Shown here piece after piece: positions 1,571 through 55,503 of a stretch of DNA of 64,000 nucleotides. Under the pieces are notes generated by a model. That model was not told the DNA's origin, ran no database searches, and saw only the letters and a program-made list of their open reading frames with translations. Source of the stretch: Telmatactis stephensoni (lineage: Eukaryota; Cnidaria; Anthozoa; Actiniaria; Isophelliidae); the NCBI GenBank assembly GCA_029948255.1, contig JALIZF010001621.1, positions 333,001 through 397,000 on the forward strand, read 5' to 3'. Numbering within the stretch: the first letter of the stretch is position 1; every line of letters starts with the position of its first letter. Position numbers and translations under genes: made by a program.

Positions 1571-1797
1571 CTAAAAGAGCCGTTTTTGAGCATCTTGGGT
1601 CATTCCTTTATTTGTATTTGGTGGCTCCTAAAAGAGCCGTTTTTGAGCATCTTAGGTCATTCCTTTATTTGTATTTGGTGGCTCCTAAAAGAGCCGTTTT
1701 TGAGTATTTTTGGTCATAATTTTCTTGTATTTGGTAGCTCCTGAAAGAGGCATTTTTTGAGCATCTTTGGCCGCATAGCTTTACCTGTCTTTGGGGG
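1571..1797. repeat. 57-bp tandem repeat, about 4 copies
   Basis: The unit begins CTAAAAGAGCCGTTTTTGAG and recurs at 1571, 1628, 1685 and (diverged) 1741, a spacing of 57, 57 and 56 bases. Because 57 is divisible by 3 the plus strand stays open across three copies and encodes a 19-residue hydrophobic repeat. No flanking coding evidence supports a real protein, so it is listed as a minisatellite. Confidence 0.8.
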
Positions 1798-13544: not shown

Positions 13545-13896
13545 AATGAGTTTTAAAAAGTCTCAAAATCGGAAAACTCTATTGTTTAAAAGCCTTGCAC
13601 GCACATTTGCAAAATTACAAAAACTAGTCTTATATTTCGTGTACATCACACAGATGATATGCATCAATAGTATTAAGGTCTCTTGGTATTACCAAGTTGC
13701 ATGCTTTCAAATATGTAGAAGATGACAAACAAATGTTTTTTTTTCTGTATTTATTGAGTGTTCAAAAACCATATCTTGTTTTGATAATTCTCGTACTGAC
13801 AGAAAAGGAACTAGACTGATTCCACAAGTCCTAGTTTTCGCTCTTTTATTCTGGTTGGCCAACTGAGGAGCGAACAAACCGACTTATGGAATGAGT

Positions 13897-15030
13897 CTAC
13901 TAACGCACGGCTGTTTCAACCGGAAATTTAAGTCCGCTGATCAAGTGTATCGCTGTGACTGATCTTACGCCATGCCGCTCAAATGAAAAGGATGACAAAA
14001 ACTAACTGGGGCTTGACAACTTTTCAAACAGTAACAGCGACGCCACCCTGGACAACGAGTCTTCAGAGGCAGAGTAATCGTTTATACACTGTATTATATC
14101 TTACTGCGGTTTTCAGTATTCTGCGAATCTGACTTTCAAACGCCAACCGCTAATTTGCGTTTTTGCTTCTGTTAATCAAAAGTAAATATCACTAATACCA
14201 AGAACTTTTAATACCAAAATGATAATATAGCTAATATATACTTTCTAAAGATCAAATTTGGCCATTTGGTAGGATTTTAGGAACTTTTAGTATTGATTTT
14301 TCAATGTTTTGTTGCTGAGGTGGGCAGAAGCGAATAACCAAATTCCAACGGACTGTTCGCAGAATATCGAAAACCGCAGTAATATTCTCTATCATTTTAT
14401 CAATATAATAAAAACATATCCTCACTACAATTTTGTTTGATTTATTCTTTGATTATTTATTTATTTATTATACAATGCTTCAAACTAATATATCCTATAC
14501 GTGAGTCGAGAAGGAATCAATAAGTCTTTAGTTGCTTGTAGAGGACGCGAACAGATTTAGATCATATCCTCATATCGGGCGCATAAATTACAACAAACTG
14601 ACTGCATTGATCAATATCATATTTCTATTACCTTGCTTTTGAATAGTCCTTGCATGGGTTAACGTGTAGAAATTGCTCAAAAAGTATAAAATAATAAGAG
14701 GATTATGCCTCCAAAGCACTCGGAATCCTTGTTATTCGGTTAGCAGCAAATTGATCCTTAAAATCGGACACTTCAAAATGTTTTTACAGCGATTTCTCTA
14801 CGTCAGCCCACAGACAGATCTTTCACCACTCTCTTTAATCGGTCCAAGTATGCATACATGCTGCATGAGGCAAGATTTAATTGCGCCAAATACGTGCGGC
14901 AAAGTCTATTTTCGATTTGTTTGTTTTGACTCCTTATATGGTAATAGTGACATATTAACATATCGTATTCTAATGCGCATGGCAATTCAATGTAATTCCG
15001 GATTCGGTCATTTGAAACAGCTGTGAACGA
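13897..15030. mobile_element. ~1.13-kb insertion present only in copy A
   Basis: Copy B runs directly from ACTCTACTAAC-like sequence into ATGATTCAAGCTGG at 35490, while copy A has 1.13 kb in between. The ends are weakly inverted (GCACGGCTGTTTCAACCGGA against CACAGCTGTTTCAAATGACC read from the right). A candidate 3-4-base duplication around AAC is ambiguous. A 117-codon frame within (14673-15026) has no recognisable domain. Confidence 0.6.
14091..14384. repeat. MITE nested in the copy-A insertion
   Basis: Terminal arms TTACTGCGGTTTTC and its reverse complement GAAAACCGCAGTAA are extended by matching TTCTGCGAA/TTCGCAGAA. They enclose about 290 bases. The TTA/TAA ends fit a 3-base target of Harbinger type, but this was not verified against an empty site. 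Confidence 0.6.
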
Positions 15031-23349: not shown

Positions 23350-23541
23350 TGGCAATTAAGTTTTTTTTTTTTTCTGCATGGTATCTATATATTATTCTAT
23401 TGCTTAAAAGCCGTGCACGCACATTTGCAAAATTACTAAAACTAGCCTTATATTTCGTGTACACCACACAGATGATATGCATCAATAGTATTAAGGTCTC
23501 TTGGTATTACCAAGTTGCATGCTTTCAAATATGTAGAGGAT
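23350..23541. repeat. Duplicon copy B, left fragment
   Basis: It matches 13545-13733 of copy A and ends at the target duplication GTAGAGGAT. It continues at 35305 after the 11.76-kb element. Confidence 0.85.
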
Positions 23542-23705
23542 TAGCCTCCTCCGCAGGCAACACTGCATTGTTTTCGGGAAAAAAGCCGCTGTTAGGGCTT
23601 CCTGTGTTGCGAAGTCTCCGAGCGCGAAGCGCTCGGAGACTGAGGCGAGCGCGGCAGCGCGAGTGTTGCCTGCCAAATTTGAAGGCTTCCCAAGTGCATT
23701 GCGCA
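23542..23705. repeat. Left terminal inverted repeat with hairpins
   Basis: The outer arm GCAGGCAACACT faces GTGTTGCCTGC about 110 bases further in. Between them is a perfect 12-base stem with a GAA loop at 23614-23640 (GTCTCCGAGCGC/GCGCTCGGAGAC). The end of the transposon can therefore fold on itself. Confidence 0.8.
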
Positions 23706-23710
23706 TGTTG

Positions 23711-23767
23711 TGACGTCACCACTGCGCATCACAATCATTACGGTATGGGGGCGGGGACCGTATAAAA
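23711..23767 (+). promoter_or_regulatory. Core promoter of the RecQ gene
   Basis: A perfect cAMP-response-type palindrome TGACGTCA (23711-23718), a GC box GGGGGCGGGG (23747-23756) and a TATA box TATAAAA (23761-23767) lie 59-115 bases before the helicase ATG, directly inside the transposon TIR. The element appears to bring its own promoter. Confidence 0.7.
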
Positions 23768-23825
23768 TTGTCTTGCGATTTTTTTCACACCAGTGTAGCA
23801 GGGAAAATTTTGTTCTAATACAAAT

Positions 23826-25751
23826 ATGGCGTCTATCCAAGAGCATTATAACGAAGTGCTTTCGCGGATTCCGCCACAAGATGCACTCGTTGTTTCCAAA
23901 TTTACAATCAAAATTAATGGAATAGAGCTTGAGGATGTTGAGGCAAGTTCTGTTTATGAAACTGCGGTGAAATTTTCATTCGTGGCAGAAATTAACGGAA
24001 AAGAAAAGTTTGAAATCCTCCAAGATGGCCGTCGTTATGTCTATGAAGTGGATGGTAAATGTCGTGGTAATCCAGTTCTGTTATTTATGGAGGTTATTTT
24101 AGACGAAGAAGAACTAAACAGTGATTTGATAAGTGATGGACAACAAAATGAAGAAGTAACGTCCCGTACAACCGACCGTTATAATGAAAGTGAAGATGGT
24201 AGTCATGATGGTGAACTTATCGACAGGACTTTACAACAGTTCTTTGGCCATCATGAGTTCAGACCATTACAAAGAGAAACAATATTTTGTATGATGAATG
24301 GTCAGAATGTTTTAACGGTAGTTGGTACGGGCGGAGGGAAATCACTGATGTTTATGCTGCCGGCTGTACTTTCCGAAAAGCCAACGCTAGTACTTTCTCC
24401 GATCAAGGCGCTCATTGATGATTTACTAGTTAGATGTATGAATTTGGACATTCCAGCATGCAAGTTCACTGGAGATGTACCAAAGGATATTCAAAGGACT
24501 CAGTTGTTGAGCACTGAAAAATACAAAATAGTGTTTGTCACTCCAGAGATTCTCTTAGACAAAGAACTCTCATTAGTAACGGAAGGGAGATTTGAACGTT
24601 TTGTTTTCGACGAAGCACATACTATTGTAACTTGGGGTGAAACCTTTCGTCCTGAGTATCACCAAGTGTGTGAGGATCTTGCCAAGCTTTCTACGCCAAA
24701 GTTGCTGCTTAGTGCTACAGTTCCCGGAAAACTTCAATCCAAATTAGAGAAAATATTTGGAGAATTGGTCATCTTTCGCCACTCAGTTTTTAGACCAAAT
24801 TTGACTCTTGAAGTACTAGAACGGCCAGGCAAATTTTACGATGAACTTTGTGATTTTGTATCAAACCACCATGGAGAGTGTGGTATCATCTACTGTGTAT
24901 TGCCAAATGACGTAGCCAAAATTCATTCAGAGCTCATAAAGCGTGAAGTTAACTGTGTCAAATACCACGGACAACTGTCAGAAGAAGTAAAGATAGCTAG
25001 TGCTAACAAATGGCTAAATGGAGAGGCTAGCTTGATTATTGCTAACTCGGCTTTTGGAATGGGCATTGACAAAGAAAACGTTAGGTATGTAGTCCATGCC
25101 CGCATACCAACTAGCCTCGATGAATATTATCAACAGTGTGGACGAGCAGGAAGGGATGGTCTGGAATCATTATGCCGATTGTACTATTCATATGGTGATA
25201 AGTCATCATTGTATCGCATGTTTGTTGGTCAGCCACATTGTACAGCAGCTGTGGAGGATTTGAATGATCTTCTGGAATTCCTTGAAAATCCAGTTCACTG
25301 TAGACACAGGGAAATCTTGGCATACTTTGGAGAAAGAAAAGAGAATTTCCGTTGTGTCACTTCTTGTGATAATTGCAACTCCAATCACAGATGCCAAATA
25401 ACTGATGGAACAACAGATGCTATTAAAGTTGTGCAAGCACTTGTGCAGTTAACAGGACGCACTTTAACATGTAACACTTTGAAAAATTTCCTTGCAGGAA
25501 GTCGACAGAAAAGTATTTTAGAAGCTGGCCTAGACAACTTTTCAAATTTTGGTGTATTGGGGAAAAAAGTCATGCCAACTGTAATGTTGGAAAAATTTCT
25601 GCACACTCTTATTTTCTGTGGAATTCTTGATGAAAGACCACAACAACTAAGGCGTGGTAGCAACATTTCTTTGCATATTTGCTTGGGTTCAAAAGCACAT
25701 GACCTCTTGGCACTAAATGTAAGTGTTCCTAAGTATATACTAAAAAAGTAA
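23826..25751 (+). CDS. RecQ-family DNA helicase, intact single exon
   Basis: The product has 641 residues. After a unique N-terminal region of about 130 residues come motif 0 (HEFRPLQRETI), Walker A (GTGGGKS), motif Ia (LSPIKALIDD), DEAH box (VFDEAH), motif III (LLSATVPGKL), motif V (NSAFGMGIDKENVRYVVH) and motif VI (YYQQCGRAGRDG). A RecQ zinc-binding region (CRH..C..SCDNC, about 515-540) and a winged-helix-like C-terminus follow. All ATPase residues are present. RecQ enzymes unwind DNA 3' to 5' using ATP. The ATG follows its own TATA promoter within the transposon, and the lack of introns contrasts with the multi-exon gene at the other end. It lies convergent to the ankyrin gene. A role in transposition is inferred from position. 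I do not assign it to BLM, WRN or RECQ1/4/5. Confidence 0.95.
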   Translation: MASIQEHYNEVLSRIPPQDALVVSKFTIKINGIELEDVEASSVYETAVKFSFVAEINGKEKFEILQDGRRYVYEVDGKCRGNPVLLFMEVILDEEELNSDLISDGQQNEEVTSRTTDRYNESEDGSHDGELIDRTLQQFFGHHEFRPLQRETIFCMMNGQNVLTVVGTGGGKSLMFMLPAVLSEKPTLVLSPIKALIDDLLVRCMNLDIPACKFTGDVPKDIQRTQLLSTEKYKIVFVTPEILLDKELSLVTEGRFERFVFDEAHTIVTWGETFRPEYHQVCEDLAKLSTPKLLLSATVPGKLQSKLEKIFGELVIFRHSVFRPNLTLEVLERPGKFYDELCDFVSNHHGECGIIYCVLPNDVAKIHSELIKREVNCVKYHGQLSEEVKIASANKWLNGEASLIIANSAFGMGIDKENVRYVVHARIPTSLDEYYQQCGRAGRDGLESLCRLYYSYGDKSSLYRMFVGQPHCTAAVEDLNDLLEFLENPVHCRHREILAYFGERKENFRCVTSCDNCNSNHRCQITDGTTDAIKVVQALVQLTGRTLTCNTLKNFLAGSRQKSILEAGLDNFSNFGVLGKKVMPTVMLEKFLHTLIFCGILDERPQQLRRGSNISLHICLGSKAHDLLALNVSVPKYILKK

Positions 25752-27028
25752 AGTTCTAGGTAGTTGAAAAGAACAGATGCAAAGACTTACTTTAGAACAA
25801 AAAGATGACAGATAAACCAAAGAGATGCATCATAACCCATATTCTGTTTACAATATTACAAGAAATTAGATTCTAGGACTGATATCTTGATTTTTATGTA
25901 AAATACAACATATCACAGAAGCTTGATTTCTTGAAGTTGGAGCCACTGTCTAACAATTTGGTATTGTACTTGTTAATTGACATGCTTGCTACATTGTTGA
26001 TGCTGTACATCAAAATATCAGTTATAAAGATCTGCTTGTATTCTTCAAGGGTTATCTATGTTCATCTATTTGGTTTACCATTTATTTTGAGAACAAAGAG
26101 GAACATAGAGAGTATTTTTATCAATGATTCTTATATTTTAATATGTAAAACCATACATGAGTCTTCTGGCATTCATAGTCAGTAATTACAATACTATGTA
26201 TATAAAAAAGGCTGTTCTTCATGCATTGTCAGTTATTTGTTAATACAATACTTGTCATTTCTCATATTGTCAAATTATAATTATTGAATCTGACAATTAC
26301 AATTTGTACAAAAGGAAAACCAAATCATATCTAAAATGGACATTGTCTCTCAAGTTTCAAATATTCATCCTTGTTGGACATTCTCTTCAATGATTTGACA
26401 GGGCTGATCTCTTTGTAATTTAAAATTTACTTACAATAAATACTTTTACATGTACCTGTAACAGATTTGTGGGTCCTTACTCCTAGTTAAAAAAGAAACT
26501 ATATAGTGATTCTACCAGTGAAAGAAATAACTATTATTGACTTCTATTTGGCTTGTTACCACTGAATGAATAAGTGCCCTACCATGAAAATGGTCATTTT
26601 TGTGGGTGGGATGCTAGTGTTTTGAATAATTGTGTGCACTTATAAATCTTGACCATTATACCTTTTCATTGGATATGTTTCAATTAATATTCTATGTATT
26701 TACCAATGTTCAAATTCTTAATCAATATAGTGAAACAAACTGGAGAAACTATGCAGTTCATGTACTGTTCACTTAACAATAGTTATTTGGCTAGAAGTTC
26801 AGGCCATTACATGAATGGTTAAAATGAATAGTCAAAATGTTTTATCATTTGCTGGTACGTACTAATGGAGGAAACAAATGGGAAAACCTACAATAAGCTC
26901 AAGTAATGCATTCAAAAAATCTATTGTGTTATATTGTAACCTTGGTTTTATTATTTTTTGTTGTGAATATGTTGCATGCTATTGCAACAGCATGCATAGT
27001 TCTCCCCAAATACAACTTATTTTGTCTA
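25752..27028. other. Shared 3' region between convergent genes
   Basis: AT-rich DNA between the helicase stop and the stop of the minus-strand ankyrin gene. Several short frames are present but none is supported. It presumably holds both 3' UTRs. Confidence 0.5.
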
Positions 27029-28759
27029 CTACAACATTTCATTTGGGAATTTTCTATGAAGAAAGGATTGGAATTCACCTTCAATTTTCTTTTGTCCTTT
27101 TTCTACAGTGTCAATATACCTTTTGGGAACAGTCTCACCATCCTTCACTTTCTTTCCAGTCCATGGGTAAACCTTCACCGTTTCTCTTCCTTTGTTTTCA
27201 AACCATTCCTCCTTTAGAACAAACTGTGCAACCTTTAATTGATCATATAACGAACTTGGCTTCTTGTGTTTCCTAGTGTTGTGCACACCAAAGGCTTCTC
27301 TACTTTTGTACATGTTCCTGGTTGCTTCCAAAATACTCACATTTGAAGACATCAACTCCACCATACCAAAGGAACTCTGTGCTCTGACAAACTGTTTGAC
27401 AGGACGAACAAGAAAGTCCTCCACCCATTCGTCACCTGCTAGCTGTCGTCCCTTCTTTCCATCTAGATTTACTGTTCTATTCTGCTGATACATTTTTCTA
27501 AAAGCCAAAGGCCATTTGGCAACTGCATGAACACACTGAGTTAGTGCCTCATCTCGATAGTTGGTCTTCCCCAAGGGTGCGTACAATGGTGGACAAAGCA
27601 TCCAGACCCCCTCTATTGCTTTTCCATTTCCAAACCTTATTGCTTCTTTATACCATCTAGTGATTGGCATTAGTTCACTTATGACTGAAAGGTGGTAAGA
27701 AAATACAGCATCTTTCTTCTCGTGACTGACAAACTCTTCAAACTTGTCTAACAGGATTCTATTGTGGCATCCATGCTCTTTTAAACATGTCTCAAGCTCT
27801 TTTTGACTCGGGAAGTATTTTGAATCCTTGAATTTTTTAACCAGAGCAATAGACAGTCCATCATCATAGTCCAGAAGTGCCTCATCATTGTTGTTGTAGT
27901 TGTTATTCTGGAACTTCTTTTTAAATGAAGTTGGATTGACTGTGGGCCTTTTCATAATGTTCTCTGTTACATGCCAAAACCCGCCATGTCCTGCGACTCT
28001 TGCAATGCATTCATTTATATAACCACGGTTGTGGAAGTCTCCACCACCAGGCGAGTGGCAACCATAACGATCAGGGCATCTGTTGGCACAGCCTTGTAAT
28101 GTTACTGTGTTTTTTTGATCTCCAATGTTGATGTTTAGTGTCCTAGCATAGTTCATTTGGCTGCATGCGGTTTCCATCTTATCAATGCCTGCATTACCAT
28201 CAGTGTTGATGTTAAGGCCTTGTATTTGTGAAGTCACATGAGATAATACATTTTCATTATCAGCGATTTTATTTTGGATTACAGTTTCCATAAATGTGTC
28301 TTGTTTTACTCTCACAATTTCCAGGGGAGAAGCTGTAGAGTCATAAAATCGTTCATATACTGATGCTCCCAATTCAACCAGCAACTTGGCAGCGACAGTG
28401 TGCCCCATGTGCAAACTTATAGTGAGCGGAGTTTGCCCAATGCCATCTTTTTCGTTTATAAGTGCTCCACAAAAAACAAGGCCTTTAACAAGTCTGGTAT
28501 CACCTCTCATTGCCGCGAGATGAAGGACACTTCTTCTATACTGGTCTCTCGCGGGAAACCACTCGTCTTTAATGGCCGCGATTTTCTTAAACAGAGTCGC
28601 GTCGCTACTGTATACAGACGCCAGTTCTCTCAGCTCATTTATAATAACATTTGTTCGATTATCTAGCTCTTTGTTCGCCTCTTCTACGCCAATTTGGTCA
28701 AGTAGCTCTTCCCACGTTAGCGCACTTGCCGGCGCCATGTTTACATTTTCACACATCAA
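27029..28759 (-). CDS. Ankyrin-repeat protein with DUF6589-like C-terminus (intact)
   Basis: A single open frame of 576 residues with its own ATG. Residues about 75-165 are ankyrin repeats (RSVLHLAAMRGDTRLVKGLV, then GQTPLTISLHMGHTVAAKLL). The middle has a Cys/His cluster (CANRCPDRYGCHSPGGGDFH). The C-terminal part has YKEAIRFGNGKAIEGVWML, GKTNYRDEALTQCVHAV, DEWVEDFLVRPVKQFVRAQS and FGVHNTRKH. This pattern I recognise from memory as the C-terminal part of DUF6589-type proteins, common in repeat-borne genes of cnidarians and fungi. It may be a transposase or transposase subunit, which is inference; no catalytic triad is assigned. It lies between the helicase and the nine-exon gene, on the strand of the latter. 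Confidence 0.75.
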   Translation of the reverse strand: MMCENVNMAPASALTWEELLDQIGVEEANKELDNRTNVIINELRELASVYSSDATLFKKIAAIKDEWFPARDQYRRSVLHLAAMRGDTRLVKGLVFCGALINEKDGIGQTPLTISLHMGHTVAAKLLVELGASVYERFYDSTASPLEIVRVKQDTFMETVIQNKIADNENVLSHVTSQIQGLNINTDGNAGIDKMETACSQMNYARTLNINIGDQKNTVTLQGCANRCPDRYGCHSPGGGDFHNRGYINECIARVAGHGGFWHVTENIMKRPTVNPTSFKKKFQNNNYNNNDEALLDYDDGLSIALVKKFKDSKYFPSQKELETCLKEHGCHNRILLDKFEEFVSHEKKDAVFSYHLSVISELMPITRWYKEAIRFGNGKAIEGVWMLCPPLYAPLGKTNYRDEALTQCVHAVAKWPLAFRKMYQQNRTVNLDGKKGRQLAGDEWVEDFLVRPVKQFVRAQSSFGMVELMSSNVSILEATRNMYKSREAFGVHNTRKHKKPSSLYDQLKVAQFVLKEEWFENKGRETVKVYPWTGKKVKDGETVPKRYIDTVEKGQKKIEGEFQSFLHRKFPNEML

Positions 28760-30205
28760 TGATCAACGTGCTACTTCACTTCCGGAAGGACGTGACAAAA
28801 AGAAAATATGCAAGTGCTCGAATGCTGGATTTGATAATCTCTTATTCATATTTTGTGCAACTTTTAGTCCGAGACAAAAATTGACACAACTTTTTCGTTG
28901 TATTTTTTTAATCACGTCCGGCCCAGAGTCAATAACGCTTTTGTAGCGTGACATCTTCCGAGGTATACCGTGACACGGTGGGTCAACCATTCCGGCCCTC
29001 CTCCCCAAAATCGATCAAGAGATTTTTTAACAAGAACTTTGCATACTTTATAAAGTATGTTTTGATCAAACTTTGCCAGTAAGGTAAAAACATCTCACAA
29101 AATATATCTTTTTATATTTTTAATTACCCAATGTTGGTACTGTGACGTCTTAATAGTCACAATTTTTTTGTCATTTTTTAAAATCATGGATTGAACATTT
29201 TATGTGAGTAATTTTAAAAGGTGTATACCAAAGGTGTTTAAATCTGAAAAGCATTTCTCAATAGTATCAATGCTCCTAGTTATTAAATTCAAAATAATCA
29301 CCTACCCACCCCTCCCGTCTACCCCCATTTGTATGGGAAAATATATAGAAAAAGAAACCCCTTAGGAATATTTTTTGGTTATTTCATTAAATGAATGCAT
29401 TCTTGTTTTAAAGTACTTTACTAAATTAATGTCCTCAAAAATCATATGGAAGCAGAATTTTGCATTGGGGTCTGAACAGCCAAAGGAAGATATCTACATG
29501 TAGGAATGTATTATCATGTTAATGTCATATGATGACAACATAACATCACATAACAAATCACAAGGGGGTGACAACACTGTGGAAAGCATAGCAATTTCAT
29601 AACCAGTCAAACAGATATAGACCCCTTGCACGTCATGTCAGAGCAGCTCAATCTGGGACTGGACAAAACAAAAGACTTTTGCTCTCTTGAGAGCTAGAAT
29701 CCATTGTTTTGTCCCCCAGATTGAGCTGCATTCTGACGTGCTGCAAGAGGTCTATTGAGAACCATATTATTTTAACACCTGGTTTATAGCAGCCTATAGA
29801 GGATTTCTAATTTATTTCTTGTTCTAATTAATCCTTGTTTGTACTAGTGTACATAAAATCAATAATTTTCTTTACACCATCACTATCCATTCTCTTTGAC
29901 ACAAACAAGTGAACTACATGGGAACTTTTTTTAAATTGGGAATTATTCCCTTTTTGCAATGACTGAGTCAAGCAATTAAAACAATCATAACAAATTGAAT
30001 ATGCTGCTTAATTACTTGAATAGACCCAAATGGTTTGGTTGTCACTTTGGCCAAGCACATACAAAAAAGTTCCCTTCAACTTTTTAAATGTTTAAATCTT
30101 AAATTTACTGATAATATGCAAATTGATTAATTCTTCTTATTTGACAATACATAAATGAAGCAAAAAAAGTTGAGCACTGTTTTCTCTTTATAGGATTGAA
30201 AAACA
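28760..30205. other. Intergenic stretch inside the large transposon
   Basis: AT-rich DNA between the two minus-strand genes with a foldback MITE at 29618-29754. No exon with splice support was found. It should contain the promoter of the ankyrin gene just above 28759 and the 3' UTR of the nine-exon gene. Confidence 0.4.
29618..29754. repeat. 137-bp foldback MITE
   Basis: Arms of about 48 bases face each other: ATAGACCCCTTGCACGTCAT with TGCAAGAGGTCTAT, extended through CAGCTCAATCTGGG/CCAGATTGAGCTG and GGACAAAAC/GTTTTGTCC. The loop is about 35 bases. No target duplication seen. Confidence 0.85.
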
Positions 30206-32377
30206 CTACACAGTCTCCTCATCACTTTCAGAACTAGATTCATCTGAACGATCTTCAAGAGTGTCTTCTTCATCTATAAAATCTGCATCTCTCAAGTCTT
30301 CACTAGCTTGCCCCCTCAAAATGTTTTCATATTCCTTCTGTTTTTCCTTGTGTTTTTCAAGGCTCTTCAGAAATGCAAACCTTTGGTATGCCCGATCTAA
30401 ATCAAACTTTTTGCCTGATTTGTCAACAGGTAAATATCTCTTTTTGGTCTCACTTGAGAAATTAAACTCATCTGTAAACAAGTCTAGGTTGCTGGCCACA
30501 CCAAATGTTGAGCACTGATTTTCATGGGAAATGGGCAGAGGAAAGATATCACTTTTTTTTTCTGCAAATCGAGGAAAATCCTCCTCCACACCAGGAATCT
30601 CAATCTTGAATTGCTGCTTTGACACTTCAGTGATTGCTTGGAGATCTTCATTTTTGGAAGTTACAATTTCCTGTGCTGACTTATCAACAACATTCAACCC
30701 CAAGTTTAGCTTTCGAAGAGTCTCTCTGTCCTTAAAGTTCAACCACAGGTTGTACTGCTCTTCATTGCATTCTAAGATAATAAAAAATGTCTGAATATCT
30801 ATTTGAAGGCAAAGAAGTAGGAAACAATAGTAAATGCATCAAAGCAACATGTGGCAAATTGAAAGTCCAGGCCTACATTACAGTGGTTTATTCATAGAGG
30901 GAACCCACAATGTCAGAGGGTTTTGTATTTATTGGAGTTTTTGATGATTGTCAACTTTTCCGATGTTTCATTTTTGTATTTGCAATGGGTTTTTAACCTT
31001 TCTTATACTTATTTTGTGTTTATTTACATATTTCACTGCAAGAGCAGGGTTTTCCCCTGACACAGAGCGGTGAGGCTCCAAAATGGGGGCCCAGAAGATA
31101 CATACCTAGTGTCACATCTGAACTTTTGAGAGTGTGAACATCTTTTTGGGGCTTGGTAGCAAAGTCAGGATTTTTAAATAGGTCAGCAATACCAGAGATG
31201 TTTGCCTCTCGCCACCCTCTTACCGTGAAGTCCCACATCTTTCCTTGCTTCATCTTTTCTTTCTGAAGCTTGGAAAGACGAAGGTGCCTCAATGATGTTT
31301 TTTTTAATTGCATGTTGTCCTGGTATGTCAACACAGGAACATCATCTTCAACTTTTTTCTTGATAAGAAGCTTGTAATTGTTGTGTTGCTTTCTTAAAAT
31401 TCCAATCCTAAGAAAAGATAAGATAAGAAAAGAAAGAAATTTACTAAAATGAGACATGAATGGTTTTTAAGAGGGAACAATCACAATGGGGAAAAAATCC
31501 CTCAAAATTAAGTACTATTAAAAGATATTAAATAATTTGAGCAGTCTACATTCCATTGACAAGGTTTAGTAATGTGCATAGTTTTACATCCCAATCATTT
31601 ATTATGAGTTGAAATAAATAGTAACCCCTGGTACACAACTGGTAAAGGAATCATTTACTGTACATACAAGACTGGAAACGACTCAGATAGGCCAAGATGC
31701 TGAAGAACAGTGATCATAGAAGGGCCAGCTCCATGACAAAGGCACAACATCCCAAACAAAACAGGAATGTCATTGCCTGATTGTTGGTTCCTAACATCAA
31801 GTAAGAAAGCTAGAAGATGTATGCCCGCTTTTAACTTTGTGCCAACCGTCTTCTTTGTGTTTTTGGAAACATTGGAGGAAAGAATAAGTTGTTCAATAAT
31901 GTTCATTGTTGTTGGACATTCTGCTTTGATGCGTGTCACTAGTTTTTGGAAAAGATATGGATCCAGTACATCCAGTAAGTCACTGGGTTCCTTGCTTCTA
32001 ATGTTTAAGTTGAATATATTCTCAGCTTTCTTTACTTCCTCCTGTATGGCTTTTCGTTCTGAAAGGGACAATAATCCACCAAGAAGATTGCCAGTATCAA
32101 CAATATCCTTGTACAAATTTATTATATCCTGTTGCTCATGGATTGTCCTATCAGCACATTCCTCAAATTGATCAATGTGACTTTGAAGCTGTTCAAGTTC
32201 CTCTTGGAGTTCTTTTTTTCCTGTTAGTACTGTTTCTAGATTCTCTTGCAAATCTCTGATAGTCTCATCAGTTTCATTAAACAGTCCTTCATCCTGTTCA
32301 TATGTGGTGTCTCTGTCTGGATGAAATAACAGAGAATGATCAACTACTATGATTCATACTGCATTCATCATAATCAA

Positions 32378-32409
<32 letters not shown>

Positions 32410-35034
32410 AGAGAAAGAAATGGATGGATAGATGGATGAATGAATAACTATAAATACTGTTTGAGTGTCAATGTCTACTTGTGCTTACACAAATATAATA
32501 ATTATTATTGGGAAACACTTTACTCTCACACTCACTACATGTCTAATATTCATCCATCCATCAATCCATCAATATTTTTTAACAAAATCACTTGACTCAT
32601 GTTGATTTTTGTGGTGGGGGAAAATTGGAGAACCCAGAAAGAACCCTCATGGCAAGGGAGAGAACAACACATCAAGCAAACCCAGCTCACATAATTAACC
32701 ATAGCACCACCCTTGCCACCAATCATTTTGATAGGCATAAATAAATTAAATAAATGAATAAATTTGGCAGTTTCTAGAGCGCATTTTCCATGGTGAAATG
32801 ATCAAATGCGCTATAACAAAATCATATAAATCAAACATAAATGGATTAAGAATCCCAACTGGCAAGGAGGCAAACCAGTTGGCTATATTACAAGCATGGC
32901 CGAGAAACTGAATTTGAACTAATCGAAATCGGAACAAATTCAGTCTCAGCTAGTGGCCACAGCGGGAATCAAACCTGGGACCGCCAGATTGCAAGACCAA
33001 CGCTATGACCACTCGGCCATGCTGCCTCCTAGGCATTCATCAGAACCACACATAAATATGAATAGTTACTTAGTTTTTAATACCTATTCTGTCTGTTCCC
33101 AAACTTAAAGAATCTATTTTTCCAACAATAGCATCATCATCATCATCATCGATTCCAGCTACAACTATAATTTAAGGAAATCAGATTAATCATTGGAAGT
33201 TATCACAACTGCGTGCTCACTTAGTGGAACCTATAACTGCATGTTTATGACTTTGAAATACAGCCAAATTATAGTTTCTTCACATCTTAATTTCCTTGAA
33301 AACCCCAAAATTTAGATTTTTGGTTGGCTATACATCAGGTGAACACTATGGCACTTGGACGGTGGGACTTATCAACACCGCTTCCTCATTCACGAGACAT
33401 TAGGTAGTGGAACACTTAAAAACATGCAGTACAATTCTGGAATATCACTGACATTAACATGTGAACATTTATTTTAATGAAACATTGTCCTTACCTTCTG
33501 TAATATCAGTCACACTAGCAGCTATCTCAGTCGCCTTGAGTAAACCTATAAAAGATTGACAATAACAGGTTACTTTTGATTTTGCTGAAATTAAACCATT
33601 CACTTTGCAAAGTTGCTGACAGTTCATTGGACTGAAAACAACTTGCAGTAAGAAGTTAGGCTGTTGCAAAGTTCAGAATTCAACTAGTACTTCCTTACTT
33701 ACTTCTCCTAATTTTTGGTTTAGAATATCCAACATGTTCTACAAAGTGAAACAAGAAAATGTTGATAATCAAAGTAATGATAACACTGGTATGAGACTCA
33801 CTATGAGGCTAGTTTACAAGTACTCCATCATATTTGTGAATGGCAAGTTTTCCATACCTTTGTCAGCATGAGTAATGTCATGACTTGTTACAGGCTTCAG
33901 AGAGAGGTCACGATAGAAACGTCTAAAAACATTAAAAAGTGTTACAATATTGATATCAGGAAGGAATAAAAATTATCATTGTGGATCAAAGCTCAGTGTC
34001 GTTTGCAGTTAGCTCTTCTGTGTCCAAACAAGAAAAAAAATCTCACATTAAGACAAATTTGTAATGTCTGAGATATATCTCAAGAAGACAACCTTTCGTT
34101 TTTTTGAGTGACAAATTCGTAAATTTAAGGAATCAACTTTTGTGTGTAAACAAACAAAAATTCCATTCTTACTCTTTTTTCTGCCCTCGTCGTTCAATTC
34201 TCTTCTTGAATAATCCAGACACGACTTTGAGAACCTTGGTCTGGTCACAGAATTTGATGGCTGGGTATTCCTCCGCAAGTCTTTTAAAAAGATCGTCTAC
34301 AAGCAGTATCGTTCCTGGCGATGTTTGAACAACATCCTCTAAGGCAGCATTGAGTTCAAATTTGAACTTTTGGTGAGCTGGTCTAACTGTCGATAGGAAA
34401 TACCGAGGGTTCGTGTCAGAACTTCCCTGAGTCAGAGGTTTTTGTTGCATACGTTGTCTTAAGTAAGTTATGTACAGTTTCATACGCACCTTTCCTTGTC
34501 GTTCCACCAGGAGTTATGATTTTCTGTTTTATAGACGTACCAATAAAACCTTCAAAACCTAGCTTACACTCCGAGCGAGTCGGGGAGCGAGTAGAAGTAG
34601 GATTCAGTTTTATTTCTTCCAGTTCTTTCATCAAACACGTCAGCCGTGCCTCTTTCTTTTGAATTTCGATTTTGTTCTCTTTCACAGCTTTTAAGACCTT
34701 TTTATACTCCGTACTACAAATAGGAATGCCATAGCTGCCAACCCTCCCGGATAATCCGGGAGTCTCCAGATTTTGGGCCTCGTCTCCCGGTCTCCCGGAT
34801 AAAGACCTAAATCTCCCGGATAATCGCTCGAATCCTAAAATTGCGGCCATTTTAACTGAAATATCGTCTATCTTTCTTGCAATATCGTCTTTCCAAACCC
34901 CCCCCCCCCCCCCCACTGAGCGTGAAAATCGACCCAATTCTAAGGAAAAAATGTTGATCTCCAGATACGAAAGCCTTGGGGGTTGGCAGCTATGGAATGC
35001 TCGTCTTCTTGTATCGCACCTTTTGCTCCGCCAT
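30206..35034 (-). CDS. Nine-exon gene of the large transposon, 743 codons, split by a MITE
   Basis: Exons: 35034-34490 (containing a MITE), 34386-34173, 33922-33858, 33738-33703, 33545-33495, 33158-33084, 32316-31668, 31407-31106, 30771-30206. Every junction has AG/GT signals and reading phase is kept across all eight introns. Total coding length without the MITE is a multiple of three. The start is ATG in exon 1 (MAEQKVRYKK), 270 bases from the transposon end. Features are a basic coiled coil in exon 1, a possible helical DNA-binding unit in exon 2 (TILLVDDLFKRLAEEYP), an acidic exon 6, a coiled coil plus KLKAGIHLLAFLLDVRNQQS in exon 7, TYQDNMQLKKTSLRHLRLSK in exon 8, and an acidic Ser/Glu tail. 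Exon 7 resembles the N-terminal part of DUF6589-type transposases (recall). Likely transposase or partner. This copy is broken by the MITE. Confidence 0.75.
32379..32430. repeat. (GAAA)n microsatellite
   Basis: About ten AAAG/GAAA units, followed by GGATGGATAGATGGATGAAT repeats, within an intron of the nine-exon gene. Confidence 0.95.
32580..33030 (-). mobile_element. tRNA-derived SINE in an intron of the nine-exon gene
   Basis: Read on the minus strand from about 33030 it begins GGAGGCAGCATGGCCGAGTG (A-box-like) and has GGTTTGATTCC (B-box-like) about 50 bases on, with a tRNA-like order. A moderately conserved body and T/A-rich tail follow to about 32757. The segment 32590-32700 (GGAGAACCCAGAAAGAACCC) may be a second repeat. 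It lies between exon 6 and exon 7, so it does not disturb coding. Confidence 0.6.
34731..34993. mobile_element. 263-bp hAT-like MITE inside exon 1 of the nine-exon gene
   Basis: Ends ATAGCTGCCAACCC and GGTTGGCAGCTAT are inverted. GGAATGCC (34723-34730) and GGAATGCT (34994-35001) flank it, an 8-base duplication with one mismatch. Internal CTCCCGGAT repeats and a 15-base C run (about 34900-34914) are present. Removing the insert with one target copy brings ATG and the rest of exon 1 into the phase required by exon 2. Confidence 0.85.
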
Positions 35035-35139
35035 CTTGTGTTTAACTATTTCACTCATCAGGGGTGGAGAGCGGCAAATTCTTTACAAAACTCTTCCCGG
35101 GGTACCCGGGGTGCCACAACAGATCCTGGAAGGTGACAT

Positions 35140-35304
35140 AGCTGGTCCGGAAGCCTTCAAATTTGGCAGGCAACTCCTCCCGTTTTTCTTTCCCCCTGAC
35201 CCCCTCCCCCCTCATCTTTTTTGGCTCGCTCCCAGTCTCTCTTCTTTGCAACAGGAAGCCCAGGAAGCCCAAGAGATAAAAGGAGTTGCCTGCGGAGGAG
35301 GCTA
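35140..35304. repeat. Right terminal inverted repeat
   Basis: It carries the complement of the left-end blocks: CTTCAAATTTGGCAGGCAAC at 35155-35174 and GTTGCCTGCGGAGGAGGCTA at 35285-35304. The middle differs from the left end (polypyrimidine instead of the GC hairpin). Its own GGCAGGCAAC...GTTGCCTGC arms can also pair. Confidence 0.8.
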
Positions 35305-36952
35305 GTAGAGGATGGCAAACAAAGGTTTTTTTCCCTGTATTTATTGAGTGTTCAAAAACCATATCTTGTTTTGATAATTCTCGTACTGACAGAAAAGGAA
35401 CTAGACTGATTCCACATGTCCTAGTTTTCGCTCTTTTATTCTGGTTGGCCAACTGAGGAGCGAACAAACCCACTTATGGAATGAGTCTACTAACAATGAT
35501 TCAAGCTGGTCGACCGGGATTCCTGTGTTACAATTAACGACGTTTCTTCAATGCGTTTGAACTTTTCCTTTCAAATTGTAAATGCTTTACTTGGAAACCC
35601 TAAAAATACATTTCTCTCGTTGCACTCATCCTTTGTTATTTTAATAAGGCATTTCAATTGGTGTTTCAAATTTTCATACTCTGAGATACTCGGAAGGTTT
35701 ACAAAAAATGCAATCAAGAGTGGCATATCGGAATTTACAAGTTCCGAAAAATAACTGGACATGAAATTGCTTGACGACCAAAACGACATCACCCTGAAGT
35801 AAGCGGCCTTAAAATTTACCTTTTTTACAATGTATTTTGGATAGCTTACAATGCTTCAATGGCCATGAAATGTGTAGGATTAAGAAAAAACTAGGTGAAA
35901 ACGGTGCTACTGAAGTAAAAAAGAATTATCGAGGTAATCTGAAGTTTTCTAGCTTTGTGTAAACATAACTGAAATGATAAACAAAATTGAAAAGGCGCAG
36001 CTCTATCAACTTGGCGTAAATTCATATTTCTCAAAATTGTGCAAAGCAATTTTGTTCTATTTCTCCAAACGAACAATTTTAATTGTTAAAAAAAGAGTAT
36101 GGCAACAAAATGAGCTTAAAAGAAGGTGTTTGTCGTCACTATAAATTATTGGTAGTTCCGATCATAAATAATAATAATAATGACTTTAATATTTATAACG
36201 CGCATATATTCATTAACATATGCTCATATGAAGAAAAGAATTAACAGTCTTCAGCCATAAATAAGTTATGTGTTTTTTGCAGACAAAACCAATTTAGCTC
36301 ATTCAAGTGTTGAGCCAGTTCACTTCATATAATCATATAATCTAAAATTTCAACCAATATCCTGAAAGAATTTTAATCCTCAGTTCTTTAAGAACTAGGA
36401 TAATGAAGCCATCTTTCGTGCATTTTTTCACACACAGCCGCATATGAGCATATGTAAATGAGCATATGATCATAATGATTTAAGGTCAAAAGAAACTTGA
36501 AACTATCTCTTGACTTACTCTGAAAATTGTTTTGAAATTAACTCACCGATTCAATTATTCTAGATCGTTATAAAATAGAACTGGTGCACAACATACACTT
36601 AGCTAGCAACTATCGAGTTTTTGGTGCGCCCGTTTTTAACACTAAAACTATTTTCATTTCAAGATTTTGGTTTTATTTTTGTGTGTATTCTTAAGATTAC
36701 TAAAACTCACTGTTCCACAGTAGCGAAACGCACGAAGTGCCGAAAAAGCTCATAAACGAAAAGAAAAGATCTCTGAGTTGCGGCGAGAGTTTGGAGCGCA
36801 ATCCACCGCAGTCACAAACTTTTTTATTTCCGAACTTTGTATTTTGACATACTTTTTATATATATATAAAATTGTTTGACGAATTTTCGAGAAAATCTTT
36901 TTTTTTAATGCCTCATTTAGGAAGCGTTTGGATGCCTTCAGTCAAAATTTAG

Positions 36953-45432: not shown

Positions 45433-46804
45433 CTATCGACAGCAAACAATTTCTGGGTTAGTTTGTCTGCATTTAGAGCAGATTGATTTGAAAGTCCTAA
45501 TTCGATCTGGATCAAAAGCTGTAATGAGAAGCGATTTATAGTGAGCATGGAGTTTCTTTTTGAAAGACGACAAGGAAGTACAGGTCTTGATATCAGAAGA
45601 CAGAGAATTCCAAAGGATAACTATGCGGTTAAAGTAAGAGTCTCTAAAGGTTGACGTTTTTGTAATATTAGGCATGTAATTGATATGAGCTACTGCGTTC
45701 CTTGTTGATCTACAAGCATTTCCGTAAGAAGTTACATATTTGGAGATATCAAGACTAAAGAGTTTGAGACGACATTTGTAAAAAAATACGAGATCTAAGT
45801 ACTCAAACCAATAACAAATTGGGACCATGTCTAGTTTAATTAGCCTATCTCTGTAGGATAGATCTACAGTACCAGCCTTACCGGGTGTAAGGATGTACTT
45901 AGTCGCACGGCGCTGTATACGTTCAATCAAAAGCAAGTCCCGAGTGCTGGACTGAGGAGCCCAAACCTGACTCCCATAGCACAAAACAGAGCGTACTAGG
46001 GACAGATACAGAGCACGACGCAGATCAACTCCTACAGAGGTAGGCGTATTTCGCCTAAGAAATCCTAAGACCTTGTTGGCCTTGGCAATAACAGAGATGA
46101 CATGGTTATGCCATGTCAAATCATTTGATATGATAACTCCTAGGTCCCTTTGCGAGTTGGCCTCGTTGAGGATGTCAAACTCGATAGTATAATTACGAAA
46201 AGGCGGATTTCGCTTTCTGGAGATCTTCAAGACGTCACATTTAGCAGGGTTAAAGTTTAGGTCCCAATCATGACTCCAAGAAACAATACCATTCAAATCA
46301 TATTGAAGTGCGAGATGGTCCTGTTGGGACCTCTGTGCACGGAAGCATTTGGTGTCATCCGCGAAAAGTACCGTACACGTACCCGCCGATGTGACATCCG
46401 GAAGATCATTTACATACAGAGCAAAAAGAAACGGCCCTAATATACTGCCCTGAGGGACTCCTGAAATAACTGACGTGTAACTAGATTTTGTACCATCAAT
46501 AACTACACATTGTTTACGATTACAAAGGTAATCTTTAAACCACTCCCAAAGAGGGCCTGTTATTCCGTATAACTTCAGTTTAACTAGTAACTTTGAATGA
46601 TTTATGGAATCAAACGCCTTAGAGAAATCTAAATATAGAATATCTGTTTCAGTATTTCTATCAAGTAGTGAACCGACTTCATGAAAGACTGACAATAACT
46701 GAGAAACACAGGATTTACCTTTTGTGAAACCAAACTGACAATCTGAGAGAAGAGTTTCAAAATGAGGTAAAATCTTTTTAAGTACACATTTCTCGAGAAC
46801 CTTG
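45433..46804 (-). pseudogene. LINE RT (second part) and C-terminus
   Basis: Starting KVLEKCVLKKIL next to the transposon end: FGFTKGKSCVSQLLSVFHEV, DILYLDFSKAFDSINHSKLL (catalytic Asp), SGVPQGSILGPFLFALYVND, VLFADDTKCF (FADD box), LGVIISNDLTWHNHV and a C-terminal region ending at 45433. Apparent N-terminal extension codons above 46804 belong to the CACTG element. Confidence 0.9.
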
Positions 46805-47576
46805 CACTGCTTGAAAAAGAGCGTGTCATGGCTTTGAAACGAAGTGATACGAACCCGGATTCTTTGAAAATATTTAAATTTCCGCTCGTGTCGTGCATCT
46901 GATATTCGACGTGTACAGGTCGTATCAAACAAGGATTCTTCCCGAATCGAACTGGGTTGTCCGGATCAGGAAGTGTCGTGATGGTGACACGCCTGTAAAA
47001 TTTATAGTGTCATGTATTGGAAATCTCTCGGTTTTCTTTGATACGTAAGAAATATGTTGGTGCCAGTTATATGAAATTCTTCTGCACTGACATCTTCATT
47101 CTGTGTCACAGAATAATTTTTTATTGGAAATATAATTTTTCTGTAAACTTTTTTTTGGAGGTTCTGCTATGACTCTCCAATGGATGCTGATCAAAAATAT
47201 TAGAGAATTTCAGAGAATTTCTTGCCCCGTAATTTTATAATACTCCACAAATCAGGAAATTTCGCGAAACAGAACTTCCGCTCACAACTCGTGTCTTTGA
47301 GTGCCGGATCGTATAAATTCAATGATACGTCAGGTTCCATTAAGTTTCCACTGCCCGTCTACACAACAAATATAGTTAATTCGCACATTTTAGTATACTT
47401 CAAACTTTTATTTAGTAATCAAAATGCATATAACTCTTATTAATATTTACAAAAGATATTTAAAATTGAAATTAAAAATAGCGTCCATGAGATTTCAGTC
47501 ATCAGGCTTAACTTTAACATATTTACATGCATCATCAAACTCATCACAGCGTGTTATATTAACAGTCCACAACTAT

Positions 47577-51735: not shown

Positions 51736-53598
51736 TTTACTAGATGTGTTTGACTCTCTCGCTCTACATGGAAACATATATTGCTTCTATAATTAACTAA
51801 CTAAAATGATTGTTTGTATTGACTGCTGCAATATTTTTGTCCAGTGCTTGAAGAAGTATTATTTTTCTAAATCAAAGGAAAATGTGTGCACCTTCCATTA
51901 ATCAAACAGCTGCTGGTCATTCTTCCTTACTCTGACAAGTAAAGTGATGACTTTGTGGTGGTTAATAATTAATATTACTTGATAGTATTGTATGGAAACA
52001 ACATGACTTCATTCTTGATATCAAATAAAAAATCTGTTTCTCTGACAAAAACAGAATAGCTAAGTCCATAGTTTGGTGTGCAATGATTAATGGGAAAACA
52101 ACTTTTTTTTTCTCATTTGAATATTCTATAGACTGAGGGAAATACCATGGATGTACTTTAGGACATGTATACTTAATGGAGAATGTGCAGTTACATAGCA
52201 ATATTGTATTGTGCATTTTTGGTGAAAGGAGGTTGTGCATTAATCAAAGGGAATTAAAGCTAAATCTCTGAGTGCACACACAATAGGATATAGGAAAAAT
52301 CCCTGACTCAAGTGAGATTGGGAGTTTAACCATGCAAGAGAACGGAATATAAAACAGTTTTCTGCGGTGTTTGATAGCTTCACCAAAATGCGTCATGTGA
52401 GGACAGGGGATAGGAACGAGTGCTTTCACAGCTCTCGAGTGTTTCCACAACTTCACAAGTGTTTTGGTTATGCTATACTATCAGACGCAGAATACGTATA
52501 ACGGAAGTAATTTTCGTCAAAAACAGTCGACTCTTCCATTTACCGACAAAAATGGCGCGCGCTAGACCTGACGTAGATTCGTGTTTTGATACTAAGCATG
52601 GTTTTTTTCGCCAATCAAAGCGCACGTTTTGTATGTTATCTTCCAAATTATTTGAAATTATGTTCTTTTATAAGTGTAAGAGTTTTTGGTGACCTAAAAA
52701 ATACCCCCTTCCCTTTTTAATGGCTTGTAAACCATAAAAATTCCTTTTTGTATTTATGAGCATGCGCAGACCACAGCTAAAACGTCCCACATGAAAAGCG
52801 CGCTTTGATTCATCAAAGCAATGAGCCACTAAAATTTCTGTGGCTGCACTTAACGAAAGTCAGGTTCTATCAATGTGCGACGGCACTATTATAGGCTTTG
52901 GGTCCTGGTAGTTTCCTCCCATGCAGTTAAGTGAAGGCACCGAAAGTTCCTCGGAACTTCAAAGACCTTTTAAGGCGCCCCGACATCCGAGGAAGGCCAA
53001 AGGTTCTGGCTCTCGCTTTGCAGAGAAGCTCGTTGCTTCACCTGTAGGCAGAGAGATTCTGCAACTTTTGTGCTGTGGTCTAGGGGAATTTTATTATAAA
53101 ACAAGACAATAATGACTGTTCAAAAGATCGAAGCCTGAACCTAGATTTTTTTGAACTACTGTCTGCGTATAATGAAACTTTTGTCGTGTCAGAAGCGAAC
53201 TTTAAAAATTGATAAGACAAAGTCTATTTCGGTGCCAGAGTTAAGCTGCTCTCTTGTTGCACTGAACGAGACTACCATTATATACCATGCATTTCGAGCT
53301 CATGATCAGTGCCTCTGGTATTTACCTCAACATGCCGTGCCCATACATATCATGATTCTGATTTGCCCTGTCACTTGATAGCATTCGTGTCTGAAGCCCG
53401 AAAACTCTCTGGTACGCCGTGCATCAAGTGTCAGGAATCGGACATATCCTGACATTCGGTGTAGAAAGAATTTCAATTCCTGGTACGTCATGACACGTTA
53501 CGTTCCTGTACACGTTGCATTTCAAACCCTTGACACACTCAATTTCACGGAAGTATCACGATACGGAAATTCCAGGAAATCCTTTATTTCAAGCAGTG
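51736..53598. other. 3' flank of the CACTG transposon, no gene
   Basis: AT-rich DNA, then a moderately GC region at 52860-53060 with a chance-like short frame, and subterminal repeats in the last 250 bases. Confidence 0.5.
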
Positions 53599-53599
53599 T

Positions 53600-55130
53600 T
53601 GCTTATAATGGGTAATAAAGAAATAGGTCTGTAATTAGTTATAGAGTTCTTAGAGTCTTTCTTGTGAACAGGAGTCACATTAGCAGTTTTCCATTCAATT
53701 GGAACTTGGCCAGAAGACAGCGAGAGATTGTAAAGTTCAGTTAATGAAGGAGCAAGCTGTACTGCACATTCTCTGAGAAGACGGGAAGGAATGCCATCAG
53801 GTCCGGCAGCCTTTGAGACGTCCAGAGACAGTAGATTTTGTAGTACATCAGACACAGTAATTTTAATGTCAGTCAGACGAACATTTGTATAAGGATGCAC
53901 AGGAGGTACAGCGGAGCATAAACCAGGCTGTTTAAAAGTAGACGCGAAGAAATTATTAAAAGCTGCAGCTTTTTCTATTGAGGAAGAGAACTTAACTCCA
54001 TTGTTGACAACAGTTTCAGGTATTGAGCCTTTGTTAGTCTTTGCCTTAAAGAAAGCCCAGATCTTACTTTGGCTATTATCAGAGGTGGTGAGCTTGTGTA
54101 CGTAGGTGTTGAATTTAGCTCTAATGAGATACTTTGTTTCTCTGCGTAGCTGCTTAACTCGCTCCCATAAGCCCGCATTGTTTTCTTTGGCGGCTTTTCT
54201 TCGCAAAGTGTTTCGTTTATTTATGGCATGAATAACCTCACCATCTATCCATGGAGGAGTATTTGCACGTTTCAATCGTATTTTTGGAATGCACTCATCA
54301 ACAGCTTCAAAGAACCTTTTTTTCCAAAAGGACCAACAAATATCAATGTTACTGTCCTGAAGAATGTCGTTAAAGGATGAAAAATCTAATTTTGTCCTTA
54401 GGGATGCAAAATCGCCTTTCTTGAAGTTGTAAACAACCCTCGAGCTTGATGCTGGTTTCCAATGTGAAATTTGTAAGTCAAATAAGATGGAATGATGATC
54501 GGAAACAATAGATACCTCGTCAGAAACTTCTAAACTTGAAATATCATCTTCGATGTTCGTAATTACAAGGTCCAATACATTTTTAGCTCTAGTAGGCTCA
54601 GAAACTAATTGAAATAAATTTTTGTCACTTAAGAAATCACAAAAGTCAGCCGCGTTGGATGCATTTGAAAATCCAGAACCCTCAATCCATTCAATGCCGG
54701 GCAAATTGAAGTCACCAAGCAATAAGATATTAGGATTGCCACAAACATCAAAGCCATTAATTGCTTCGTAGAAATTTTTAAACCAGTCCGGGGACGAGTT
54801 GGGCGGTCTGTAAACAACTGCAACAATTAGTTTACGATCCTTTTTGAAGCAAAATTCTGCTGCTACATAGTCCAAAGCGGCATTTGGACAATTTTCAATG
54901 CGAGTAGCAGATAGAGAGTTCTTAAAGGCGAGTAAAGTACCACCACCTTTTCTATCAATACGATCGTTCCTAAGAATCTGGTAGCCTATGGGCAAAACTT
55001 CACCGTCAGAGATGTCGGGAGTTAGCCATGTTTCTGTTACAGCAACTAGGTCCAAATCGTTTCCATAAACAAGCTCCTGGAAATCTTGTAACTTGCATCT
55101 ACGAGGGCAACCCCTTGTGGCTTGAGACAT
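53600..55130 (-). pseudogene. LINE endonuclease and N-terminal RT (first part)
   Basis: AP-endonuclease motifs DLVAVTETWLTPDI, RKGGGTLLAF, VAVVYRPPNSSPDW, ILLLGDFNLPGIEW (GDFN) and VSDHHSILFDL (SDH) are followed by the RT linker and LSLDVSKAAGPDGIPSRLL and NYRPISLLPI. The frame then runs into the transposon end and stops. Upstream codons include NARSLKS, the usual start of the nuclease. Confidence 0.9.
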
Positions 55131-55195
55131 GGATTTTAAGCTACGAGCATTTTGAAGGAAACAGCGTAAGGTGTAAAGGAAACAGCGTAAGGTGT

Positions 55196-55458
55196 TACAC
55201 TATTCCATCAAATATTTGGCTATTCATATGTAAATCAATTAGAAATCGATAGTGCTTTGCGGTCTTGGAATGACCTATTACCTATCGCCTATCGCTCTTA
55301 GCGGTGACAACCTTTTTCGAAATAGGTGTATACAGAACGACGTCCCAACCCTCAAGGGAATCCCAAATACACGCAAATGATAATACGAATAGCACGCACG
55401 TAGACAAGCACACACACAATAAACATACAACAAACAAACGCGAAGTCACTCTGCTACA
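55196..55458 (-). repeat. Gypsy 3' LTR, remaining part
   Basis: It matches 62758-63012 of the 5' LTR, starting ATTCCATCAAATATTTGGCT. Together with 45002-45284 it makes one LTR. Confidence 0.85.
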
Positions 55459-55475
55459 CCTTTCCCTCTTTTTTT
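55459..55475 (-). promoter_or_regulatory. Polypurine tract of the Gypsy element
   Basis: On the minus strand AAAAAAAGAGGGAAAGG lies immediately before the 3' LTR start TGTAGCAGAGTGAC, the position expected for plus-strand priming. Confidence 0.8.
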
Positions 55476-55503
55476 GTTTTGTTTTTTGTTTTTGTTTTTC
55501 GTA

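Follow-up and report, generated by a model that had tools for sequence, protein, structure and literature searches.

What kind of mobile element occupies positions 23542–35304 of a 64,000-nucleotide stretch of Telmatactis stephensoni DNA (contig JALIZF010001621.1; the whole stretch is called the window below), and does the RecQ-type helicase gene inside it belong to its machinery? The 11,763-bp segment is a DNA transposon, probably one of AcademH type that sits in a genome of anthozoan type, with a mechanism that would combine a helicase and a DUF6589-type transposase. The same 9-bp sequence, GTAGAGGAT, lies on either side of it (23533–23541 and 35305–35313), with 9 of 9 bases equal on the two flanks; at random intervals of the element's length, a 9/9 flank match arose 5 times in 200,000. 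When the flanks were joined with a single copy of this target-site duplication (TSD), they aligned to an unoccupied paralogous target site at 13578–13904 (plus strand) with 96.3% identity over 327 bp, spanning the junction. The 9-mer at the empty site is GTAGAAGAT, which has one mismatch to GTAGAGGAT. The sequence flanking the transposon is locally repeated, and because the joined flanks match the paralogous site across the junction, the insertion is most simply younger than the duplication that made that site. The initial annotation had proposed a DNA transposon with a perfect 9-bp TSD and a copy of the site lacking the insert within the window (13719–13740), and the terminal repeats, the duplication and the empty site bear this out.

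The two ends of the transposon share a pair of blocks. The 20-bp outer blocks (23542–23561, plus strand; 35285–35304, minus strand) are identical at 20 of 20 bases in inverted orientation, as annotated before, and the 26-bp inner blocks (23665–23690, plus strand, from base 124 of the left end; 35149–35174, minus strand, from base 131 of the right end) are identical in inverted orientation at 26 of 26. The region between the outer and inner blocks could be aligned in short pieces only, so that what is common to both ends is the two blocks and GGCTTCC motifs; of the further repeat blocks previously described over about 160 bases, the second block of 26 bp stands, whereas a continuous 160-bp repeat does not. 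Within either end, the outer block can pair through its final 9 bases with the opening 9 bases of the inner block, and the pairing extends past these shared bases by 3 in the left end and by 4 in the right end to give 12 bp and 13 bp, respectively. The bases in the extension differ between the two ends, and the sequence that the ends share does not by itself call for it; the chance of seven such matches is about 6 in 100,000, assuming equal base frequencies. As far as a single copy can suggest, this arrangement may provide the helicase with hairpins or with binding sites in inverted orientation. We dropped the idea that the self-pairing is extreme in energy at both ends, since the left end alone is unusual (z −4.0; 0 of 200 shuffles as low) and the right end is not (z +1.1; 167 of 200 shuffles as low), and we limit the claim to the base pairing as such. 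The value for the left end is probably due to an extra perfect 13-bp palindrome with a 3-base loop at 23613–23641 (plus strand).

Three genes are carried between these ends. Gene 1 (27029–28738, minus strand), which lies in the middle, reads leftward and encodes 569 amino acids (aa) from its ATG in an open frame, contains ankyrin repeats and a match to DUF6589 (PF20231) that covers profile positions 256–397 of 410 (E 1.1e-9, 37.9 bits) and exceeds the curated cut-off of 27 bits. A search with this protein returned 60 proteins, comprising 52 relatives (P0001–P0052; 47–68% identity over 29–99% of the query) and 8 that were taken as unrelated ankyrin-repeat proteins; DUF6589 was matched by 38 of the 42 aligned members at E ≤1. 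The protein carries GDQ, GDFH and NYRDE motifs. In the alignment, 40 of 41 rows conserve D215 of the GDQ motif (numbered in the 577-aa frame), 42 of 42 conserve D242 and 39 of 39 conserve E405, and E294 is among the further invariant acidic residues. The structural model of gene 1 is confident for the ankyrin part and several helices, and in a structure search with this model the 50 rows shown all fell on the ankyrin part (residues 12–171). The word DUF6589 was absent from the literature searched.

Gene 2 (30206–35034, minus strand) reads leftward from the right end and plausibly has nine exons: as spliced here, GT and AG are present at 8 of 8 introns, and cnidarian homologues align over exons 2–3 and 7–9. 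Its last exon (30206–30771) and the corresponding part of a pair of Actinostola homologues matched DUF6589 within positions 57–109 (E 0.010, 0.0023 and 0.0015), the window's exon itself matching positions 61–109 weakly, and DUF6589 was the top family in all three segments tested. The 210-aa open frame of the last exon gave E 0.017 against the same profile. Exon 8 contains a conserved TYQDNM motif, the QDN of which is invariant in 5 of 5 alignment rows; fungal DUF6589 proteins have a YDN motif. If the spacing of the profile holds, D215 of gene 1 would fall near DUF6589 position 126, just past the end of the gene-2 match, a placement by arithmetic and not by alignment. On another contig, a single open reading frame (P0052) begins with sequence like gene 2, 44% identical to P0062 over 117 aa (E 3e-30), and continues with sequence like gene 1, 52% identical over 166 aa (E 1e-59), and therefore the two lie there in the same order and on the same strand. 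The gene-2 alignment gave five weak matches to solved structures (E 0.025–0.41), which are coiled-coil or helical proteins by name. The nine-exon gene had earlier been labelled coiled-coil; the gene itself is plausible, and the weak matches within positions 57–109 suggest that it carries the beginning of the DUF6589 domain as well. One intron of gene 2 contains a borderline tRNA match (32954–33026, minus strand; 29.8 bits against a gathering score of 29), possibly a tRNA-derived short interspersed element.

Gene 1 alone may be the whole transposase, with gene 2 a separate coiled-coil accessory or DNA-binding protein whose DUF6589 match is due to chance, so that no split exists; we rate this only slightly short of an even prospect. 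It draws on the gene-2 matches to DUF6589, all of which are below the cut-off. In full-length Pfam scans of five gene-2 rows, P0062 alone reached E 0.1, two rows being without the region, while P0061 and the spliced protein of the window gave no match to DUF6589. Gene 1 also carries its own invariant acidic residues (D242, E294, E405 and others). This single-gene explanation fits less well with the top rank of DUF6589 in 3 of 3 gene-2 segments, with the placement of these matches (57–109) and that of gene 1 (256–397) in separate parts of the profile with the gene order kept, and with the invariant QDN. The alternative that we put forward tentatively, and regard as possible without expecting it, is that the catalytic domain of a eukaryotic DDE transposase is naturally split over two separately encoded proteins, gene 2 giving the first Asp and the ankyrin-fused gene 1 the rest, alongside an element-encoded RecQ helicase acting on self-folding ends. 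A two-part enzyme that assembles only on expression of both genes would have a built-in control. In the part of the literature titles on split or heteromeric transposases that was surveyed, only the wording 'heteromeric transposase' appeared, several of these titles being on Tn7.

In the window copy, exon 1 of gene 2 is interrupted by a 265-bp insertion (34730–34994, minus strand) that has 15-bp inverted ends (CATAGCTGCCAACCC), is flanked on either side by GCATTC (34724–34729 and 34995–35000) and has a stop codon at its edge. This insertion is likely a small non-autonomous DNA transposon. The octocoral homologue P0064 aligned weakly to the exon part downstream of it (26% over 72 positions, E 0.001), and its likeness to the piece upstream was seen by eye only. 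Because the insertion breaks exon 1, the window copy probably lacks autonomy, barring removal of the insertion by splicing or translation from a start further along. In the interval that separates genes 1 and 2, an imperfect inverted repeat at 29617–29755 (41-nt arms, 76%) encloses a nested pair (26-nt arms, 81%) and looks like another small palindromic insertion.

The helicase gene (23826–25751, plus strand) reads rightward from the left end and encodes 641 aa in one open frame, with a TATA-like sequence upstream; both outermost genes start less than 300 bp from a transposon end. The protein matched the Pfam families DEAD, Helicase_C, RecQ_Zn_bind (zinc-binding) and RQC, and no HRDC match was found in its 641 aa. 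It retains GGGKS, DEAH and the four zinc-site Cys in an alignment with BLM, and its best solved-structure matches by sequence are entries for Bloom syndrome protein and ATP-dependent helicase Q1. The gene is thus open and has its domains, in agreement with the intact RecQ helicase annotated at this end. Among the best 120 of 829 protein matches, 55 relatives (P0065–P0119) exhibited 43–57% identity, and the matches after these fell to 31–36%, except for one 43% fragment (P0122). In a 54-row tree built from the window's protein, 26 other listed proteins and those 27 of the 55 relatives that are 550 aa or longer, the 27 relatives and the window helicase formed one side of a branch with 100/100 support and a length of 2.21, at which, by a warning of the tree program, long branches meet. 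Where a relative is labelled with an organism, that organism is Desmophyllum (stony coral), Actinostola (anemone), Paramuricea or Dendronephthya (both octocorals), all Anthozoa. Residues 1–125 of the helicase (23826–24200), ahead of the helicase domain, gave no Pfam family match and were matched at E ≤1e-3 by 9 of the 22 relatives of the helicase that are 600 aa or longer; they perhaps form a domain specific to these transposon helicases.

To relate the helicase to the rest of the unit, contigs of identical size in the gene-1 and helicase relative lists were taken as the same contig, which is inferred and not seen. Six sizes among the 52 gene-1 contigs recurred among the 55 helicase contigs (5256, 9616, 30881, 267805, 4142029 and 9244646), against a chance expectation of 0.15 on average and a maximum of 3 in 20,000 jittered draws; no size was shared with 63 contigs of other helicases used as a control. 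On the 5256-bp contig, the two genes, of 642 and 591 aa, leave little space to spare; in the window, the helicase and gene 1 span 4.9 kb from start to start. The Desmophyllum relatives are numbered consecutively (OS493_000910 and OS493_000911). Identity matrices for the six linked pairs and the window were correlated (r 0.59; 34 of 5040 permutations as high). An Actinostola contig size (1228270) that a gene-2 relative and a RecQ relative have in common was rejected as linkage, the gene numbers QZH41_010249 and QZH41_001437 being far apart. Because the helicase forms a distinct clade and six contigs, judged by size, carry both families, one of them with consecutive gene numbers, the comparison supports the view that the helicase belongs to the mobile unit and is not stray cargo, as had been proposed.

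The same evidence bears on the idea that a Mutator-like or other transposon with 9-bp duplications picked up a RecQ gene of the host, together with adjacent genes, as cargo. Gene capture is known in MuDR-type elements and counts for this idea, as does the TSD length of 4 to 10 bp that these elements reach according to the available part of PMC10045372. We nevertheless consider it improbable: the helicase is a separate clade repeatedly linked to gene 1, and a Pfam scan of all 32 frames of at least 80 aa overlapping the element (shorter exons were not scanned singly) revealed, at E ≤0.1, no domain of a Mutator-like element (MULE), P-type or other named transposase, nor any nuclease domain. That the segment is no transposon and only a cluster of host genes or a segmental duplication, as the locally repeated flanks might suggest, is scarcely credible, since the terminal blocks directly adjoin the perfect 9-bp duplication at the very point where the paralogous site runs on without a break, and two divergent helicase relatives, both Paramuricea by name, sit in different subclades.

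For the AcademH-kind transposon that we favour, the features described above can be combined in a mechanism. A DUF6589-type DDE transposase would bind the inner and outer blocks at both ends, cut, and join the ends to target DNA with a 9-bp stagger. This enzyme would consist of two proteins made separately: the product of the nine-exon gene would contribute the N-terminal part of the domain, where the Asp of TYQDNM is a candidate for the first catalytic residue, and the ankyrin protein would contribute the remainder with its GDQ, GDFH and NYRDE motifs. The element's RecQ helicase would unwind the self-complementary ends or a strand-transfer intermediate before gap repair, a role in transposition that is inferred. 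With the helicase and gene-1 frames open and exon 1 of gene 2 interrupted, the present copy would probably need the help of another copy. Several observations weigh against this account. Both ends were seen in one copy only, and the likeness to AcademH is by helicase and TSD length as described in the accessible text, not by transposase sequence. The gene-2 scores against DUF6589 (14.3–17.7 bits; 15.0–17.7 for the segments) are all under the 27-bit cut-off, and the gene-2 model has a mean predicted local distance difference test (pLDDT) score of 40 and no usable fold. In the gene-1 model, pLDDT is below 50 at residues 184–222, 230–237, 283–291 and 431–500, so that the presumed catalytic region is poor and an RNase H fold is not evident; low confidence at the presumed catalytic motifs would fit a shallow alignment just as well as a missing partner. 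Segments from the middle (approximately residues 185–350) of three gene-1 proteins gave no family match in 3 of 3 cases. In the linkage test, contigs were paired on size alone, and the pair on contig 4142029 does not co-diverge and may come from two different elements.

Elsewhere in the window, two histone 3′ untranslated region stem-loops at 1598–1700 (minus strand) suggest histone genes near the left edge. Remains of retrotransposons lie at 45436–46965 and 53592–58043 (minus strand), with reverse transcriptase at 45436–46965 and 57231–58043 and endonuclease at 53592–55199. Neither the exact outer block nor relatives of gene 2 had a confirmed match in a viral contig collection, and relatives of gene 1 had none in viral or genome contig collections; these are viral and prokaryotic by description, so the result says little.

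Helicases are known from few DNA transposons, and what they do there is not known to have been worked out. The clear boundaries and empty site of this copy, the self-pairing of its ends and the linked relatives in octocorals, anemones and stony corals together offer a concrete system for testing the helicase's part. Should DUF6589 prove to be the Academ transposase, this uncharacterized domain would acquire a function; if the transposase is split over two proteins, the enzyme has an unusual design. A survey of literature on Academ, RecQ, ankyrin and corals, judged mostly from titles, revealed no such element by title.

Among known systems, the P element also has outer and inner inverted blocks at each end, with 8-bp duplications, and resembles the window element in this arrangement, although no P-type transposase domain was found in the frames scanned. 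The TSD range of MuDR or Mutator-like elements covers 9 bp, but the window element has no match to a MULE transposase domain. Kolobok target duplications are TTAA, in contrast to the 9-bp GTAGAGGAT seen here. Like the window element, KolobokH and Kolobok-1_CCri are DNA transposons with a RecQ helicase: as far as the accessible part of PMC9587614 goes, RecQ occurs in KolobokH, in fungi only, and in a red-alga Kolobok, and in Kolobok-1_CCri the helicase is on the complementary strand. The comparison with Academ rests on parts of two papers. AcademX is described with a nuclease and a TSD of 3 or 4 bp and differs from the window element, which has a 9-bp TSD and no nuclease domain in the 32 frames scanned, whereas AcademH has a TSD of 9 or 10 bp, the difference being tied to helicase versus nuclease (PMC10045372); the initial annotation had set Academ aside for its shorter duplications, an objection that falls away for AcademH. 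DEAD and Helicase_C domains are attributed to AcademH, KolobokH or Helitron elements, and AcademH elements are low-copy in several fungal phyla (PMC10799480). The title of Kojima 2020 (Mob DNA 11:15, as cited in PMC10045372 and PMC10799480) has AcademH 'found in animals and fungi'. The window element encodes a RecQ helicase in one open frame and has, in its one copy, a 9-bp TSD within the reported 9 or 10 bp; it finds its best home in AcademH, and we place it as a probable member of that kind and claim no variant.
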